64,000 bases of DNA from Caballeronia sp. TF1N1 (lineage in GTDB: Bacteria; Pseudomonadota; Gammaproteobacteria; Burkholderiales; Burkholderiaceae). Made by a program: the position numbers and the translations under genes. Where the stretch lies: the NCBI RefSeq assembly GCF_022878925.1, contig NZ_CP084628.1:124001-188000 (forward strand). The letters run 5' to 3'. The notes beneath the pieces are model-generated. The model was given only the letters and a program-made list of their open reading frames with translations, was not told the DNA's origin and did no database searches. Shown here piece after piece: positions 29,242-42,696 of this stretch; position 1 is the first letter of the stretch; each line of letters starts with the position of its first letter.

Positions 29242-30045
29242 TCAAGGGTTGGCCGGAGCGCGGTCATAAAGCCGCGTGAGTTTTCCCGGTGCGCCGAATG
29301 CCGTTGCCTGAAGCGCGGTGCCGTACTGATTGCGCGTGCCATAGCCTTGCGCGGATACCTTCGCGCCCGTGTGGACAAGACTCGGAAACTGCTGCGCGAC
29401 CGGAGGCGTGAGCTTGATGACGGTGCCATCCGCGAGAATCACGCCGTCCGGTTCGCCGCGCGGAGCGGTCGTGACATGGGCCACTTGCCCCTGTGCGCTC
29501 AGATGCGCGAGCCCCGCGCCACGCAATTCACGCGGCATGGGTTGCGCGCCCGGAAGCGGCGGCGTATCGACGAGTTGCTGGCCGCTTCTCGAATCCGCGA
29601 TGCGTTGTGCCTTGAGATTGCCGCCCGCATCGCGCAAGCCGCTGATTTGCACGCTGTCGCCGGGACGCATCGCGGAGACAAGCTGCGCGCTCATATGCGG
29701 CGGAAAGCGCACGAGCGCGCCGTCGTCGGTGAGAAAGCCGTCGACGTCGCCATCCGGGTTGGTGAGGAAGCGGGCCACCGTGGCCCGTGTGTCCACTGCC
29801 GTGCCGGCGTCGGCTGATTCGAGCGGAGCCTGACCAGGCGGCGGCGCGGGCATGGCAGTCGGTGCGGGCGCGGCGGCAACCGGCGGCGGTACGACGGGCG
29901 CCGCTGCCGGTGGCGCAACGGGTGTCGCCGCGGCTTGCGTCTGAGCGACGCAGCCCGTGCTAGTCACGAGCAAAGCGGCACAAGCCGCCGCGCCGAACAC
30001 GCGAACAGCGTTGAGTTGAATGGGATACTTCGAGGTCGATTGCAT
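29242..30045 (-). CDS. Exported two-repeat protein (probable lipoprotein), sigma-54 controlled
   Basis: A 267-residue secreted protein. An N-terminal signal (1-31) ends in S-T-G-C32, close to a lipobox although -3 is Ser; it is followed by an Ala/Pro linker (about 36-75) and two copies of a beta-rich module: 86-150 (A-T-V-A-R-F-L-T-N-P-D-G-D-V-D-G ... F-P-P-H ... G-D-S-V-Q-I-S-G) and 186-250 (G-Q-V-A-H-V-T-T-A-P-R-G-E-P-D-G ... T-P-P-V ... G-A-K-V-S-A-Q-G). The function is not known. GGAGGAG precedes the ATG, and a -24/-12 promoter with two activator dyads lies just upstream, facing this gene from the response-regulator gene. Confidence 0.7.
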   Translation of the reverse strand: MQSTSKYPIQLNAVRVFGAAACAALLVTSTGCVAQTQAAATPVAPPAAAPVVPPPVAAAPAPTAMPAPPPGQAPLESADAGTAVDTRATVARFLTNPDGDVDGFLTDDGALVRFPPHMSAQLVSAMRPGDSVQISGLRDAGGNLKAQRIADSRSGQQLVDTPPLPGAQPMPRELRGAGLAHLSAQGQVAHVTTAPRGEPDGVILADGTVIKLTPPVAQQFPSLVHTGAKVSAQGYGTRNQYGTALQATAFGAPGKLTRLYDRAPANP

Positions 30046-30076: not shown

Positions 30077-30092
30077 TGCAAGCCCTATGCCA
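30077..30092 (-). promoter_or_regulatory. Sigma-54 (-24/-12) promoter
   Basis: On the minus strand TGGCATAGGGCTTGCA matches the consensus TGGCACR-N4-TTGCW at all but one position, with the required spacing of GG to GC. A transcript would start about 30065, some 20 bases before the ATG at 30045. The adjacent gene encodes a sigma-54 activator. Confidence 0.75.
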
Positions 30093-30195: not shown

Positions 30196-31575
30196 TCAGT
30201 CGCCGGAATTGGAAGAGTCGACGTTCGCCAGACGCGTATAGAGCGACTGGCGGCTGATGCCGAGCCTGCGCGCGGCTTCTGCGCGATGGCCATCGGCGAG
30301 TGCGAGTGCACGGACGATCAGCGCCCGTTCGAGTTGCGCGAGCGCGTCGTTGAGCGGCAGTTCGGCGAGACTGGCGGGAATGGCGTCGTTGACGCTGGCG
30401 GCGGTATCGAAGAGAAAGGCGAAGTCATCGCGCGTGAGCAGTGCGCCGGGCGCAAGCGCGCTCGCCCTTTCCACGGCGTTGGCGAGTTCACGGACGTTGC
30501 CGCGCCAGCCGAAGGTGACCAGCAGACGTTGTGCATCGGATGACAGATGCTTGCGCGTTTCCGGCGATGCCGCGAGCGTCGAGAGGAAGTGCTCCGCGAG
30601 CGGCAAGATGTCCGCGACGCGTTCACGCAAAGGCGGCATATGCAGCGGAATCACGTCGAGCCGGTACAGCAAATCCTGACGGAACGTACCTGCCGCGACC
30701 ATGGCCGGCAGGTCGCGATGCGTTGCGGCCACGATGCGCACATCGACGGCTATGGTTTGATTCGCGCCGAGCGGCGTGACCTGGCGCTCCTGAACCACGC
30801 GCAAGAGCTTCGCCTGCATGGCAAGCGGCATGTCGCCCACTTCATCGAGGAACAGCGTGCCGCCGTGCGCCTCTTCGAAGCGCCCGCGCCGTTGCGCATG
30901 CGCGCCAGTGAACGCGCCCTTGCCATGCCCGAAGAGCTCGCTCTCGAGCAAGTCCGCTGGAATCGCCGCACAGTTCACGGCGACGAACGGTCCCCCGGCG
31001 CGCGCCGACGCGCGATGCAGCACGTGCGCCGCCACTTCCTTGCCCGTGCCCGTTTCGCCGGTGATGAGCACGGTCGAACTCGTGCCCGCCGCGCGGCCAA
31101 GACGCTTTTGCACGTCGCGCATGGTTTCGCTGATGCCGAGCAACTGCGGCTCGCGCGACCGCGCTTCGTCGGCGAATGCTGGCGACGCGGCGGCGGGCGC
31201 ATCGGCGTGCGCGGCGAGCATGCGTTCGAGCAACGCGGCGATCTCGTCGCGGCCGACGGGCTTGGTTAAATGCTCGAACGCGCCGAGCCGCATTGCGCCG
31301 ATGGTGTTGTCGCTCGTCGCGTGCGCGGTGAGCATTGCCACAGGCACGCGTCGAAGGTCTGCGTTCTCGCGCAGCGATTCCAGAACCGAGAGACCGTCCG
31401 CACCGGGCAGCCGGAAGTCGAGAAAGATGCAGCCGGGGGTGTCGTGCTCGCGCAGCCGCTCGAACGCCGCCTCGCCGGAGCGCGCTTCGAGCGGCGTATG
31501 ACCCAAGTCCTGAACGGTTTCGGCGAGGCCTTCGCGGAAGGCGTCGTCGTCGTCGATGATCAGTATGGTCGCCAT
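30196..31575 (-). CDS. Sigma-54-dependent response regulator (NtrC family)
   Basis: A 459-residue protein with receiver, AAA+ and Fis-type DNA-binding domains. Receiver: D8-D9-D10 acidic pocket, phospho-acceptor D53 in F-L-D-F-R-L-P-G, T83 and K105. AAA+: Walker A G-E-T-G-T-G-K-E (173-180), the sigma-54 loop G-A-F-T-G-A at 220-225, Walker B L-F-L-D-E-V-G-D (241-248), and R-L-D-V-I-P-L-H. The C-terminal helix-turn-helix (about 420-455) has A-E-A-A-R-R-L-G-I-S-R-Q-S-L-Y. It overlaps the kinase gene by 16 bases. The -24/-12 promoter and dyads immediately after its stop point to the exported protein as its direct target. Confidence 0.93.
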   Translation of the reverse strand: MATILIIDDDDAFREGLAETVQDLGHTPLEARSGEAAFERLREHDTPGCIFLDFRLPGADGLSVLESLRENADLRRVPVAMLTAHATSDNTIGAMRLGAFEHLTKPVGRDEIAALLERMLAAHADAPAAASPAFADEARSREPQLLGISETMRDVQKRLGRAAGTSSTVLITGETGTGKEVAAHVLHRASARAGGPFVAVNCAAIPADLLESELFGHGKGAFTGAHAQRRGRFEEAHGGTLFLDEVGDMPLAMQAKLLRVVQERQVTPLGANQTIAVDVRIVAATHRDLPAMVAAGTFRQDLLYRLDVIPLHMPPLRERVADILPLAEHFLSTLAASPETRKHLSSDAQRLLVTFGWRGNVRELANAVERASALAPGALLTRDDFAFLFDTAASVNDAIPASLAELPLNDALAQLERALIVRALALADGHRAEAARRLGISRQSLYTRLANVDSSNSGD

Positions 31576-40590: not shown

Positions 40591-41204
40591 CGATCTTTTT
40601 CGGTGTGAAAGGCACTCAGAACAATTGATTTCAACGTTGAGTAAACCAGACTGCGCCGATGAATGGTCTGGGCCTACTCAAGGTCATCCGCCTTTGAGAT
40701 CGTCAACTCGCCCGACTTAACGATCGCATGTTTCAGTCGCTGAACTTAATTGCACGGTCTCCGCTTGATTCGTTGCCTTCGGCGCGTCGACGGATTCGTC
40801 TGCGGTGCCGACACGAGTGCATTGTGGCTTAGCGAGTTCGAACCATCATTCGATTGACGCCATTGCGTGCGGGCTCTCCTTGCCATGTACTCTTGGCACT
40901 CGACAACAGACCTTCAAAGCGCAGCCGCGTCTGCCTTGGAGATCGTGGGTCGGAGACAAGTCCCAAGGTGTCTGTTTGTGACGTTCACTTTCTAGAGCGC
41001 TGTCTGCCGCTTTAATACACCCCCAATTTCGAATGCGTATGGACGCTTGCCCTTAAAAGCCGTCTTTATAATTTTTAGCGTTTAAATTCATTCACTTAGA
41101 AAATAGTAACCGCCTTGGTGGCTTGCTTGGCATGCCTCTCGCATATGTAGCTGCGAGCGTAACAAGTTATCGCTCGACCAACCCAACCACTTAGGAGATT
41201 CACC
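40591..41204. other. Long intergenic leader region before the GG-peptide array
   Basis: A 614-base stretch with no convincing gene. It contains a CCAGAC/GTCTGG hairpin (40646-40671) downstream of hxlR, an AT-rich tract with a perfect TATAAT (41067-41072) but a poor -35, and a hairpin CGAGCG-TAAC-AA-GTTA-t-CGCTCG (41154-41176) about 30 bases before the first peptide ATG. The likely transcript would have a long 5' leader of over 100 bases. Confidence 0.45.
41067..41072 (+). promoter_or_regulatory. Candidate -10 element for the peptide array
   Basis: TATAAT inside an AT-rich tract, 132 bases before the first peptide ATG. The only upstream match to a -35 (TTGCCC, 41047-41052) is spaced 14 bases, shorter than usual, so an activator or a different -35 may be needed. 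Confidence 0.35.
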
Positions 41205-41465
41205 ATGCTGACGATCAAAGACCTCGCCGCTTCCAAAGAACTCGACCGTGCTGAAATGGGCGCCATCACGGGCGGTAGCTCGTTCTTCTCGAACGCCGGT
41301 ATCAACAGCAACGTTCAAGCAGGCGGTCTGTCCTTCGCTTCGCCGCAAGCGAACATTGCACCTGTCACGCAAGTCGATGCATCGACCACCACAAACGTCG
41401 ATCTCAAGACCGTCAACAAGTCGATTACCGCCGTGGGCAGCCTGCTCGGCGGCATGGCGCTTTAA
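41205..41465 (+). CDS. Double-glycine-leader peptide 1
   Basis: An 86-residue precursor. Residues 1-24 (M-L-T-I-K-D-L-A-A-S-K-E-L-D-R-A-E-M-G-A-I-T-G-G) look like a double-glycine leader of the bacteriocin or RiPP type: amphipathic, with E-L-D at -13 to -11 and GG at 23-24. The 62-residue core starts S-S-F-F-S-N-A-G-I-N-S-N and is rich in Asn, Ser, Ala and Gln, with no Cys, His or Trp and a glycine-containing hydrophobic end G-S-L-L-G-G-M-A-L. Such precursors are cleaved and exported by a C39-peptidase ABC transporter; none is in the window. TTAGGAGAT precedes the ATG. Function unproven: bacteriocin, signalling peptide or surface-associated peptide. Confidence 0.8.
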   Translation: MLTIKDLAASKELDRAEMGAITGGSSFFSNAGINSNVQAGGLSFASPQANIAPVTQVDASTTTNVDLKTVNKSITAVGSLLGGMAL

Positions 41466-41502
41466 TTCACACCATCCAATCACATCGTTTAGGAGATTCA
41501 TC

Positions 41503-41763
41503 ATGCTGACCATCAAGAACCTCGTTGCTTCCAAGGAACTCGACCGCGCTGAAATGAGCGCCATCACGGGCGGTAATTCGCTCTTCTCGAACGCCGGTAT
41601 CAACAGCAACGTGCAAGCTGGCGGCGTGTCGTTCGCTTCGCCGCAAGCGAACATTGCACCTGTTTCGCAAGTCGATGCATCGACCACCACCAACGTCGAT
41701 CTCAAGACCGTCAACAAGTCGATCACCGCTGTGGGCAGCCTGCTCGGCGGCTTGGCGCTTTAA
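41503..41763 (+). CDS. Double-glycine-leader peptide 2
   Basis: The second copy, 86 residues, almost identical to copy 1. Differences are mainly conservative (D6N, A8V, G19S, L-to-V and T-to-S in the core). The leader ends S-A-I-T-G-G and the core starts N-S-L-F-S-N-A-G-I-N-S-N. The hydrophobic end reads G-S-L-L-G-G-L-A-L. The conserved A-S-P-Q-A-N-I-A-P-V and V-N-K-S-I-T-A-V-G blocks of copy 1 are retained, so selection acts on the core as well as the leader. The same ribosome site TTAGGAGAT precedes it. Confidence 0.8.
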   Translation: MLTIKNLVASKELDRAEMSAITGGNSLFSNAGINSNVQAGGVSFASPQANIAPVSQVDASTTTNVDLKTVNKSITAVGSLLGGLAL

Positions 41764-41800
41764 TTCACACCATCCAAACACATTTCTTAGGGGAATTATC

Positions 41801-42061
41801 ATGTTGACCATCAAGAACCTTGCTGCTGAGAAAGAACTCGATCGCGCTGCAATGGGCTCCATCGCGGGCGGCTTCTCGATCTTCTCGAACACCGGCGTCA
41901 ACTCGAACTATCAGGCAGGCGGCGTGTCTTTCGCGAGCCCGCAAATCAACGTCGCACCGGTCACGCAAGTCGATGCCTCGCAACACACGAACGTAGACGT
42001 CAAGAGCATCACCAAGTCGGTCGATGCGCTCGGCAGCATGTTCGTCGGTATGAAGGCCTAA
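41801..42061 (+). CDS. Double-glycine-leader peptide 3
   Basis: The most diverged copy, still exactly 86 residues. The leader is M-L-T-I-K-N-L-A-A-E-K-E-L-D-R-A-A-M-G-S-I-A-G-G, the core starts F-S-I-F-S-N-T-G-V-N-S-N and ends S-M-F-V-G-M-K-A rather than G-S-L-L-G-G-M-A-L. The invariant F-S-N-x-G-x-N-S-N, Q-A-G-G-x-S-F-A-S-P-Q and V-D-A-S segments define the family. A two-peptide or multi-peptide bacteriocin would have this pattern of near-identical plus diverged partners, but no immunity gene can be identified. TTAGGGGAA is its ribosome site; the shared terminator lies 122 bases downstream. Confidence 0.78.
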   Translation: MLTIKNLAAEKELDRAAMGSIAGGFSIFSNTGVNSNYQAGGVSFASPQINVAPVTQVDASQHTNVDVKSITKSVDALGSMFVGMKA

Positions 42062-42426
42062 GGGCTCGCAGGCTCAGAGAGGGAAGGACCACGTGCCTTC
42101 TTCTCTCGTTGATTCTTGCCGTTAAGTCCGAGCCTCAACGAGAGGACCGTATCTCCTTGCGGCCCTCTGGGTGAAGTGTTTTAGCCCGCTTGTTAGCGGG
42201 CTTTTTTTGCGTCCGATCAAAGCGACGGTACGACATGCTCCCTCGAAAAACCACGAGCGATAAATCGTCCACCGCGTCGAAGATACTCCGCCAGCAAATT
42301 TATCCGGTTGACAACGCTTTTTGGCCAGAGAAACCTGACGTTGTGCAATGCACCAATCTGGCTAAATCGCGGCAGAAGCCAGGAATACACGTCACGCCGC
42401 TCAACGTTCATCTTCGAGGTCCTGTC
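42062..42426. other. Intergenic: array 3' region and leader of small exported protein
   Basis: After the third peptide stop, an imperfect hairpin (GAGAG-GAAGG / CCTTC-CTCTC, about 42078-42108) and the strong terminator at 42183-42208 occur. The remaining 218 bases lead to the exported small protein. An ATG-initiated frame is open upstream of its start but lacks a signal peptide, so it was not used. Confidence 0.4.
42183..42208 (+). terminator. Strong intrinsic terminator of the peptide array
   Basis: AGCCCGCT (42183-42190), loop TGTT, AGCGGGCT (42195-42202), then seven Ts in a row (42202-42208). The best rho-independent terminator in the window, correctly oriented for the peptide genes. Confidence 0.9.
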
Positions 42427-42696
42427 ATGCGACTTTCCATCCTGCTGGCTGCACTCACGACCTGTCTGACCTGTACGGCACGCGCAGAAAATCCGGCTTC
42501 GCCACAAGACTCGGCCATGTACCTTTCGAGTGTCGTCGGCAATTCGCAGATGAACGCAAATCCGCAACTGGTGCAGCCAGTCAGCGCGTCGTCGGACAAA
42601 CCATGCACGTCACCCGGAAGACGGGTTCAGCGGGACATTCGTGGGTCGATCGACGGTGGCTCGCGCTGCGACAATGCAACGGCCACCGCGTTCTGA
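42427..42696 (+). CDS. Small Sec-exported protein with paired cysteines
   Basis: An 89-residue protein. Residues 1-20 (M-R-L-S-I-L-L-A-A-L-T-T-C-L-T-C-T-A-R-A) form a Sec signal with A-R-A before the cleavage site. The mature part (about 69 residues) is Ser/Gln/Asn-rich, then basic (S-P-G-R-R-V-Q-R-D-I-R-G), with two cysteines (in K-P-C-T and S-R-C-D-N) able to form a disulfide. No family recognised. The start was chosen for the signal peptide. It lies beyond the array terminator and may or may not belong with the GG peptides. Confidence 0.55.
   Translation: MRLSILLAALTTCLTCTARAENPASPQDSAMYLSSVVGNSQMNANPQLVQPVSASSDKPCTSPGRRVQRDIRGSIDGGSRCDNATATAF

Follow-up and report, generated by a model that had tools for sequence, protein, structure and literature searches.

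Among the described systems closest to the one analyzed here are the cyanobacterial clusters of groups I, II and VI, which contain the same exporter core, a long-type (CAP_ED/cNMP) C39 transporter with HlyD and SurA, and double-glycine precursors (available part of PMC3140520). HetC of Nostoc PCC 7120 likewise has a cNMP domain fused to a C39 ABC exporter and is connected with the controlled export of an inferred peptide, its substrate still being an open question; the available part of PMC10986499 reports neither a membrane fusion gene nor a GG-leader gene in the hetC vicinity. Class II microcins and bacteriocins share the GG leader, the C39 PCAT, the membrane fusion protein, TolC and a small core (available part of PMC9746304), and CdzC/CdzD of Caulobacter are alike as type I secreted bacteriocin-like small proteins with at least two components (available part of PMC5380434). 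In a work on microcin candidates from plant bacteria (PMC13174018), the main text names no Burkholderia, Paraburkholderia, Caballeronia or Cupriavidus. Azoarcus density signalling (available part of PMC3262810) was considered as a lead and rejected.

The locus described below encodes double-glycine-leader peptides of a family designated A; this letter, as well as B, C and D for further families, was coined in this analysis. The exporter set assigned to it consists of a cNMP(CAP_ED)-C39-TM-ATPase protein with HlyD and a rotamase, as in the cyanobacterial long-type clusters, to which the betaproteobacterial set adds TolC, an FHA protein, a sigma-54 activator and a PP2C protein; the cores are different, sigma-54 boxes are present and the precursor arrays are placed in trans (compared with the available part of PMC3140520). 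Unlike in the hetC vicinity, membrane fusion and GG-leader genes accompany the exporter. No modifying enzyme was seen in the exporter set, as for class II microcins, from which the system differs by weakly acidic N/Q-rich cores, a conserved motif, many copies, sigma-54 boxes and the lack of a linked immunity candidate among the loci analyzed (available part of PMC9746304). In comparison with CdzC/CdzD (available part of PMC5380434), the family A cores are not strongly hydrophobic and have no extended glycine zipper (0/43), and no recurrent immunity-like neighbor was found. The kind of exporter is already known, whereas the peptide families, their sigma-54 boxes and the trans arrays did not turn up in searches of open PMC text, and neither the peptide family nor the module was described in the search listings of open-licence PMC papers.

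The window, i.e., the whole stretch of 64,000 nucleotides analyzed, corresponds to positions 124001–188000 of contig C3 of the Caballeronia sp. TF1N1 genome (7.07 Mb, nine contigs). The following features of the array and its surroundings were identified in it (window positions):

40969..40987, + strand: candidate upstream activator dyad 1, TGTYNG-N7-CNRACA with 2 mismatches, at -236
41001..41019, + strand: candidate upstream activator dyad 2, with 2 mismatches, at -204, 32 bp from dyad 1
41128..41143, + strand: sigma-54 type -24/-12 box, TGGCATG-CCTC-TCGCA, 77 bp before the first ATG
41193..41198, + strand: ribosome-binding site AGGAGA 5' of gene 1, found by eye, with related sites in both spacers
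41205..41465, + strand: peptide precursor gene 1, 86 aa, leader 1–24, core of 62 aa with an average mass of 6141.8
41466..41502, + strand: spacer 1, 37 bp
41503..41763, + strand: peptide precursor gene 2, 86 aa, 91% identical to gene 1, core mass 6088.7
41764..41800, + strand: spacer 2, 37 bp
41801..42061, + strand: peptide precursor gene 3, 86 aa, diverged copy, core mass 6421.1
42183..42208, + strand: intrinsic-terminator-like hairpin with a T run, 3' of the last gene

The core masses are unmodified averages for a cut after GG. The ORFs and Tandem Repeats Finder confirmed the three 86-codon genes with a 298-bp period and 37-bp spacers reported in the preliminary description, the program detecting a single array in the window (period 298, 2.8 copies, 84% matches, 0 indels, score 1140). 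All three precursors start with M-L-T-I-K and carry the 24-residue leader noted earlier, with K-E-L-D-R and with GG as residues 23–24. Two copies are near-identical and one has diverged, as had been stated, since copy 3 shows 69% identity to copy 1 and 66% to copy 2. The absence of Cys, His and Trp from the core and its G-S-L-L-G-G ending were seen in copies 1 and 2, whereas copy 3 contains one His (SQHTN) and ends with GSMFVG. The dN/dS values (NG86, calculated from few codons) were 0.17 for copies 1 and 2, 0.39 for copies 1 and 3 and 0.46 for copies 2 and 3, which suggests that the three copies are under constraint as coding sequence. Around the array, four terminator-like sites were found in comparison with 2.1 expected. 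In the region of the terminator (window 42140–42217, + strand), Rfam gave sub-threshold small-RNA matches, the best of them to a Betaproteobacteria toxic small RNA (25.2 vs. 50 bits).

A second family A array was identified at the start of contig C8 (minus strand, approximately 1–763), comprising two whole copies and a cut one, and the end of contig C3 is a fragment of a family A copy (C3:1195928–1196012). Because the C8 start and the C3 end both lie inside copies, an assembly break probably runs through the second array. The first two window copies each match their counterpart at the same position in the C8 array, at 99% for copy 1 and 98% for copy 2, and such same-position pairing indicates that the array was probably duplicated as one block. 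The contigs of several relatives likewise end within arrays. Such arrays break assemblies, so the copy numbers in draft genomes may be too low.

The first protein search revealed 62 relatives, and every organism named among them was Caballeronia, including C. insecticola (P0014, P0015, P0017 and P0022). A profile built from 43 rows matched 1130 clusters at E ≤ 1e-3, although the weaker of these may have only the leader in common; in the best 120 of the 1130 matches, listed with E ≤ 5.7e-34, there were no Pfam domains. A genome scan placed family A at 68 loci in Caballeronia (some genomes still titled Burkholderia), Cupriavidus, Burkholderia, Dechloromonas, Noviherbaspirillum, an Oxalobacteraceae MAG and Rhodoferax. 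By these comparisons the array is a member of an unnamed family present in several genera, which does not agree with the earlier remark that the core resembles nothing nameable. The notion of the array as an orphan was not borne out either, as an exporter is encoded in trans. The loci yielded 201 family members, of which 182 near-full ones were compared; all 182 kept GG, and 181 kept the E/Q/D-L leader motif. A core conserved in the absence of GG and ELD, the pattern named in the preliminary description as contradicting leader-directed export, was thus absent. In the weighted profile, the values for N33, G40, P52, V53, D57 and A58 round to 1.0, and the central core motif, FASP-x4-APVTQVDAS, is near-invariant from Dechloromonas to Caballeronia. 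Up to 11 matches were counted in a genome of the same genus and up to 13 in other genera. These data define a widespread peptide family, in which the best 120 of the 1130 profile matches have no Pfam domain.

The sequence TGGCAYRNNNNTYGCA occurs twice in the window, in comparison with 0.10 occurrences expected, and one of the occurrences is the box at 41128. A sigma-54 box preceded 92 of the 98 flagged array starts, 74–95 bp from the start codon used; starts were counted at a profile start ≤ 6, a score > 40 and at least 150 bp of upstream sequence, with overlapping loci of one genome counted repeatedly. A box was called at a score ≥ 12 within 300 bp, the weights being unfitted and based on the general sigma-54 consensus. 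Under these settings, boxes were detected at 0/80 internal genes and in 3.1% of random stretches. The six box-less starts, one of them in L064, are internal copies exposed by contig ends. In family B, the box was found in 16/19 rows and in family D in 11/15, a tally that does not include the own genome's first D gene (box score 14.6). None of 9 family C rows had a box, except that in the own genome a site lies 295 bp upstream of the C gene. One Noviherbaspirillum B gene and one B. stagnalis C gene are counted twice in these rows. A sigma-70-like promoter was sought in the 40600–42500 region and none was found.

Regulators of the PspF/NtrC class have an AAA+ sigma-54 interaction domain and are associated with -24/-12 boxes and upstream dyads, often paired. 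The activator encoded in the exporter set resembles this class, has no receiver domain by Pfam, and the boxes linked to it precede predicted secreted peptides. Upstream of the boxes, the dyad TGTYNG-N7-CNRACA recurs, with half-sites often repeated 32–33 bp apart. Among 114 distinct upstream stretches (sigma-54 score ≥ 11.5 within 120 bp, at least 300 bp of sequence), it was present with at most one mismatch in 86/88 stretches of family A, 11/15 of family B and 8/11 of family D, in comparison with 4.5% of random sequences. Within family A, it was found in 38/39 stretches from Caballeronia, 27/27 from Cupriavidus, 16/16 from Burkholderia and 5/6 from other groups, whereas within family B the Burkholderia stretches gave 0/4. 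Taken alone, the window dyads are at chance level, as 72 two-mismatch matches were found in the window vs. 72.9 expected. The C8 array has an identical box and both dyads with one mismatch each at the same offsets of -236 and -204, while the flanks have otherwise diverged, and the D gene before TolC has dyads at -233 and -200. The linked activator may bind these candidate dyads.

A strict scan for two dyads (33-bp offset, at most one mismatch) gave hits in 6/58 genomes of the genus, the own genome not being among them, and in 1/58 for the reversed control. Three of the hits (L176–L178) precede a small protein without a GG leader. At approximately base 1400–1750 of these loci, which come from three same-genus genomes, similar small proteins are encoded that have a signal-peptide-like start and end with RDSID-x2-YRGG. 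Given their sigma-54 box and two-dyad pattern, these proteins could belong to the same regulon despite having no GG leader.

The preliminary description had noticed no exporter nearby and advised looking for exporters elsewhere in the genome and for co-occurrence across strains. The former observation holds within the window, and none of the four C39 matches of the genome lies on its contig, but an exporter set is encoded on contig C2. Its C39-ABC gene is located at C2:680108–683164 and the genes are arranged in the order TolC, FHA, HlyD, PpiC, cNMP-cNMP-C39-ABC, sigma-54 activator and PP2C, with Pfam matches to OEP, FHA, HlyD, PpiC rotamase, two cNMP domains with C39 and ABC, Sigma54_activat and PP2C. 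No receiver domain was found in the activator by Pfam, and NCBIfam gave only partial matches to it, none of which, among the matches listed, reached the cut-off. In the C39 region, Cys, His and Asp were seen by eye at what we take to be the triad positions.

Scanning the own genome for ELDR-x2-M-x4-GG with at most one mismatch gave ten leaders. Six belong to the two arrays of family A, and the remaining four are spread over three sites of C2. Among these four, three adjoin the exporter set, two before TolC (family D) and one after PP2C (family B), and the fourth, at C2:873485, belongs to family C. These D, B and C genes were read at L016 8875–9465, L017 2328–2621 and L021 5417–5668, respectively; none of the four own genes matched Pfam, and B and D did not match NCBIfam. 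Five more leader matches appeared in the own genome at two mismatches.

Exporter orthologues adjoin family A genes in Dechloromonas, the Oxalobacteraceae MAG and Noviherbaspirillum (C39 76–81% identical), and in four Burkholderia loci (L072, L073, L074 and L076) and in C. pinatubonensis the exporter lies about 11–21 kb from family A on the same contig. The order from TolC to the activator was kept in 19/20 exporter stretches of 20 genomes, with L166 cut after PpiC, and PP2C was present in 18/20, not being found in L159 and L167.

Among 398 genomes of the taxonomic family, with at most 13 peptide candidates scored per genome, family A was detected in 46, the exporter in 155 and both in 45. The exporter was thus present in 45/46 peptide-bearing vs. 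110/352 genomes without a family A match (Fisher p = 1.3e-19, a value overstating independence because the genomes are related). In 58 genomes of the genus, the respective numbers were 22, 42 and 21 (p = 0.002), where the 22 are genomes with the best E below 1e-10, one of them (G014) with an in-frame stop; a looser count of 41/58 includes leader-only matches. The sole exception in both surveys was G019 (3.9 Mb, by contig place Candidatus Paraburkholderia kirkii), in which the exporter had no match. In G015 (5.1 Mb), a family D peptide (L175) with a sigma-54 box and dyads was observed and no exporter match was found. In an order-level sample of 399 genomes (at most 13 peptide and 2 exporter candidates scored per genome), only the own genome yielded family A and three genomes yielded the exporter, which means that the order as a whole does not share the system. 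That 110 genomes of the taxonomic family have the exporter but no family A match suggests additional substrates, in line with the existence of families B and D. Together with the conserved GG, the orthologous exporter in the peptide-bearing genomes lends support to the leader-directed C39 export proposed in the preliminary description.

The family A cores (43 analyzed) had a median pI of 5.3 and an N+Q content of 16%. Families B and D are acidic, N/Q-rich (21%) and without a TM-like stretch, GxxxGxxxG being present in 2/18 family B cores, and family C is cationic with a median pI of 11.4 (8 cores). The structure prediction for the precursor was uninformative (pLDDT 51, pTM 0.15). A PDB sequence search with the peptide gave no match up to E 1, no NCBIfam match to the NHLP/N11P leader models was obtained up to the same value, and Pfam gave no match above the cut-off for the peptides, including the named amyloid repeat/subunit families (curli, Fap). 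A shared ancient origin of the family A and family D cores was considered and rejected, as the HHalign probability was 0.3 and 60 column-shuffled controls reached 6.7; the same idea for A and B, with a probability of 0.8, was rejected as well. The D vs. B comparison gave a probability of 32.8, a figure without its own shuffled control.

In other Caballeronia loci, one tree clade accounted for 14/49 last-in-array positions and 0/49 other positions, and in Burkholderia two subtypes are kept, most of them with their own box, the tree support being weak (66/91). The last-position clade together with the Burkholderia subtypes points to a product with fixed parts. The multi-component product assumed in the preliminary description is in part supported by this last-position subtype and by the same-position pairing of copies 1 and 2 with the second array.

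Within 6 kb, 22 neighbor families shared across genus groups were found (ORFs of at least 70 aa), each at no more than 8/69 loci, and within 2.5 kb there were 4 (ORFs of at least 45 aa), each at no more than 5/69. The commonest were ABC transporters, including the exporter, and the remaining families resemble enzymes of general function, genes of respiration or signalling, or shadow frames. Within Caballeronia, the commonest neighbor families occurred at up to 15/31 loci, which fits a shared position. GGDEF-EAL sensor genes (e.g., L088 5465–8317 and L085 3826–6747) were considered as linked and rejected, lying 1.7–7.8 kb from arrays in only four of 69 loci.

On the basis of these data, the following mechanism may be proposed. 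RNA polymerase with sigma-54 would transcribe the three-gene operon from the -24/-12 box at 41128 after activation by the receiver-less enhancer-binding protein encoded beside the exporter. The C39 domain of the trans-encoded cNMP ABC exporter (G000:C2:680108–683164) would recognize the leaders and cleave them behind GG, and the core of about 62 residues would leave via HlyD and TolC, putatively assisted in the periplasm by the PpiC protein, while the FHA and PP2C proteins and the cNMP domains could set the timing of export. Sigma-54 transcription combined with in-trans C39 cutting and export is, judging from the sequences, highly likely. Outside the cell, the N/Q/S/V/G-rich, weakly charged cores and the co-exported families B and D would act jointly, and the cores would most likely be subunits of a surface-bound or matrix assembly, a proposal we put forward tentatively. 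A broader statement, namely that sigma-54 transcription and C39 export lead to a cooperative extracellular product of some kind, appears fairly probable.

Family membership, the promoter and the exporter association are supported by the comparisons described above, and we infer the cutting, the export, the pairing of activator and sites, the roles of FHA, PP2C, PpiC and cNMP and the joint extracellular action. The array very probably encodes sigma-54-controlled, exported, multi-component peptides. The complete reading, in which a betaproteobacterial sigma-54 module (TolC-FHA-HlyD-PpiC-cNMP-C39-activator-PP2C) exports families A, B, D and perhaps C, whose genes lie partly in trans and have been amplified to tandem arrays and whose products would build a multi-component surface or matrix system and not a bacteriocin, is given a probability of roughly 0.38. 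An apparent orphan is in this way turned into a testable regulon with one activator, one exporter and a set of predicted secreted masses, and HetC-like cNMP-C39 exporters gain a relative with strong substrate candidates.

The same exporter could instead secrete multi-component class II type bacteriocins or contact-dependent microcins that would kill neighboring cells, with an unlinked or very short immunity gene, which we regard as unlikely. GG leaders and a C39 exporter are what such peptides would have, some family A relatives carry the label Bacteriocin in UniRef, and the cyanobacterial clusters with the same exporter core are named bacteriocin clusters (available part of PMC3140520). The matches to the Pfam/NCBIfam Bacteriocin_IIc and lactococcin G-alpha models are weak, start in the leader and stay below the cut-offs (at best 13.5 vs. 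27.1 and 20 vs. 37 bits). Against the bacteriocin reading of the preliminary description, no dedicated small immunity-like gene was found among the cross-group neighbors of 69 loci, where very short or genus-specific ones could escape, and the weakly acidic family A cores contained neither a TM-like stretch (0/43) nor a glycine zipper of the GxxxGxxxG type. The near-invariant core motif also contrasts with the highly variable microcin cores and immunity proteins (available part of PMC9746304). The many near-identical copies, low charge, N/Q-rich cores, conserved motif and lack of an evident immunity gene lead us to favor an extracellular self-assembling product over a bacteriocin. Rather improbable, too, is a role of the peptides as intercellular signals, as proposed for the HetC substrate in Nostoc, with the invariant APVTQVDAS as the recognized part. 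It would be in line with the short near-invariant motif in the core, with the FHA, PP2C and sigma-54 activator genes of the exporter set and with the cNMP-C39-TM-ATPase architecture shared with HetC, whose cNMP domain binds ppGpp in vitro (available part of PMC10986499). However, a signal would not usually be expected to have a core of 62 residues encoded in several near-identical copies, and no receptor-like gene recurs beside the arrays of the 69 loci.

As the genome holds four C39 matches, another C39 transporter (C6:83662, C2:1030223 or C1:773349) might export the array, its link to the C2 set being by descent only. This is very unlikely, since the other three align at only 27–37% with the C2 exporter, no leader among the ten of the ELDR-x2-M-x4-GG type is located close to them, and the array has its sigma-54 box and dyads in common with the peptides beside the C2 set. 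The degenerate dyads of the window would be compatible with decaying or untranslated tandem repeat DNA, but the low dN/dS, the open frames, the kept ribosome-binding sites, the sigma-54 box and the terminator-like hairpin make such decay extremely improbable.

Another sigma-54-like box (TGGCATAGGGCTTGCA) was noticed elsewhere in the window at 30077–30092 on the minus strand, about 30 bp before the ORF 29242–30045 (minus strand). The product of this ORF is lipoprotein-like by eye, and the ORF adjoins a sigma-54 response-regulator-like ORF at 30196–31575 on the same strand.
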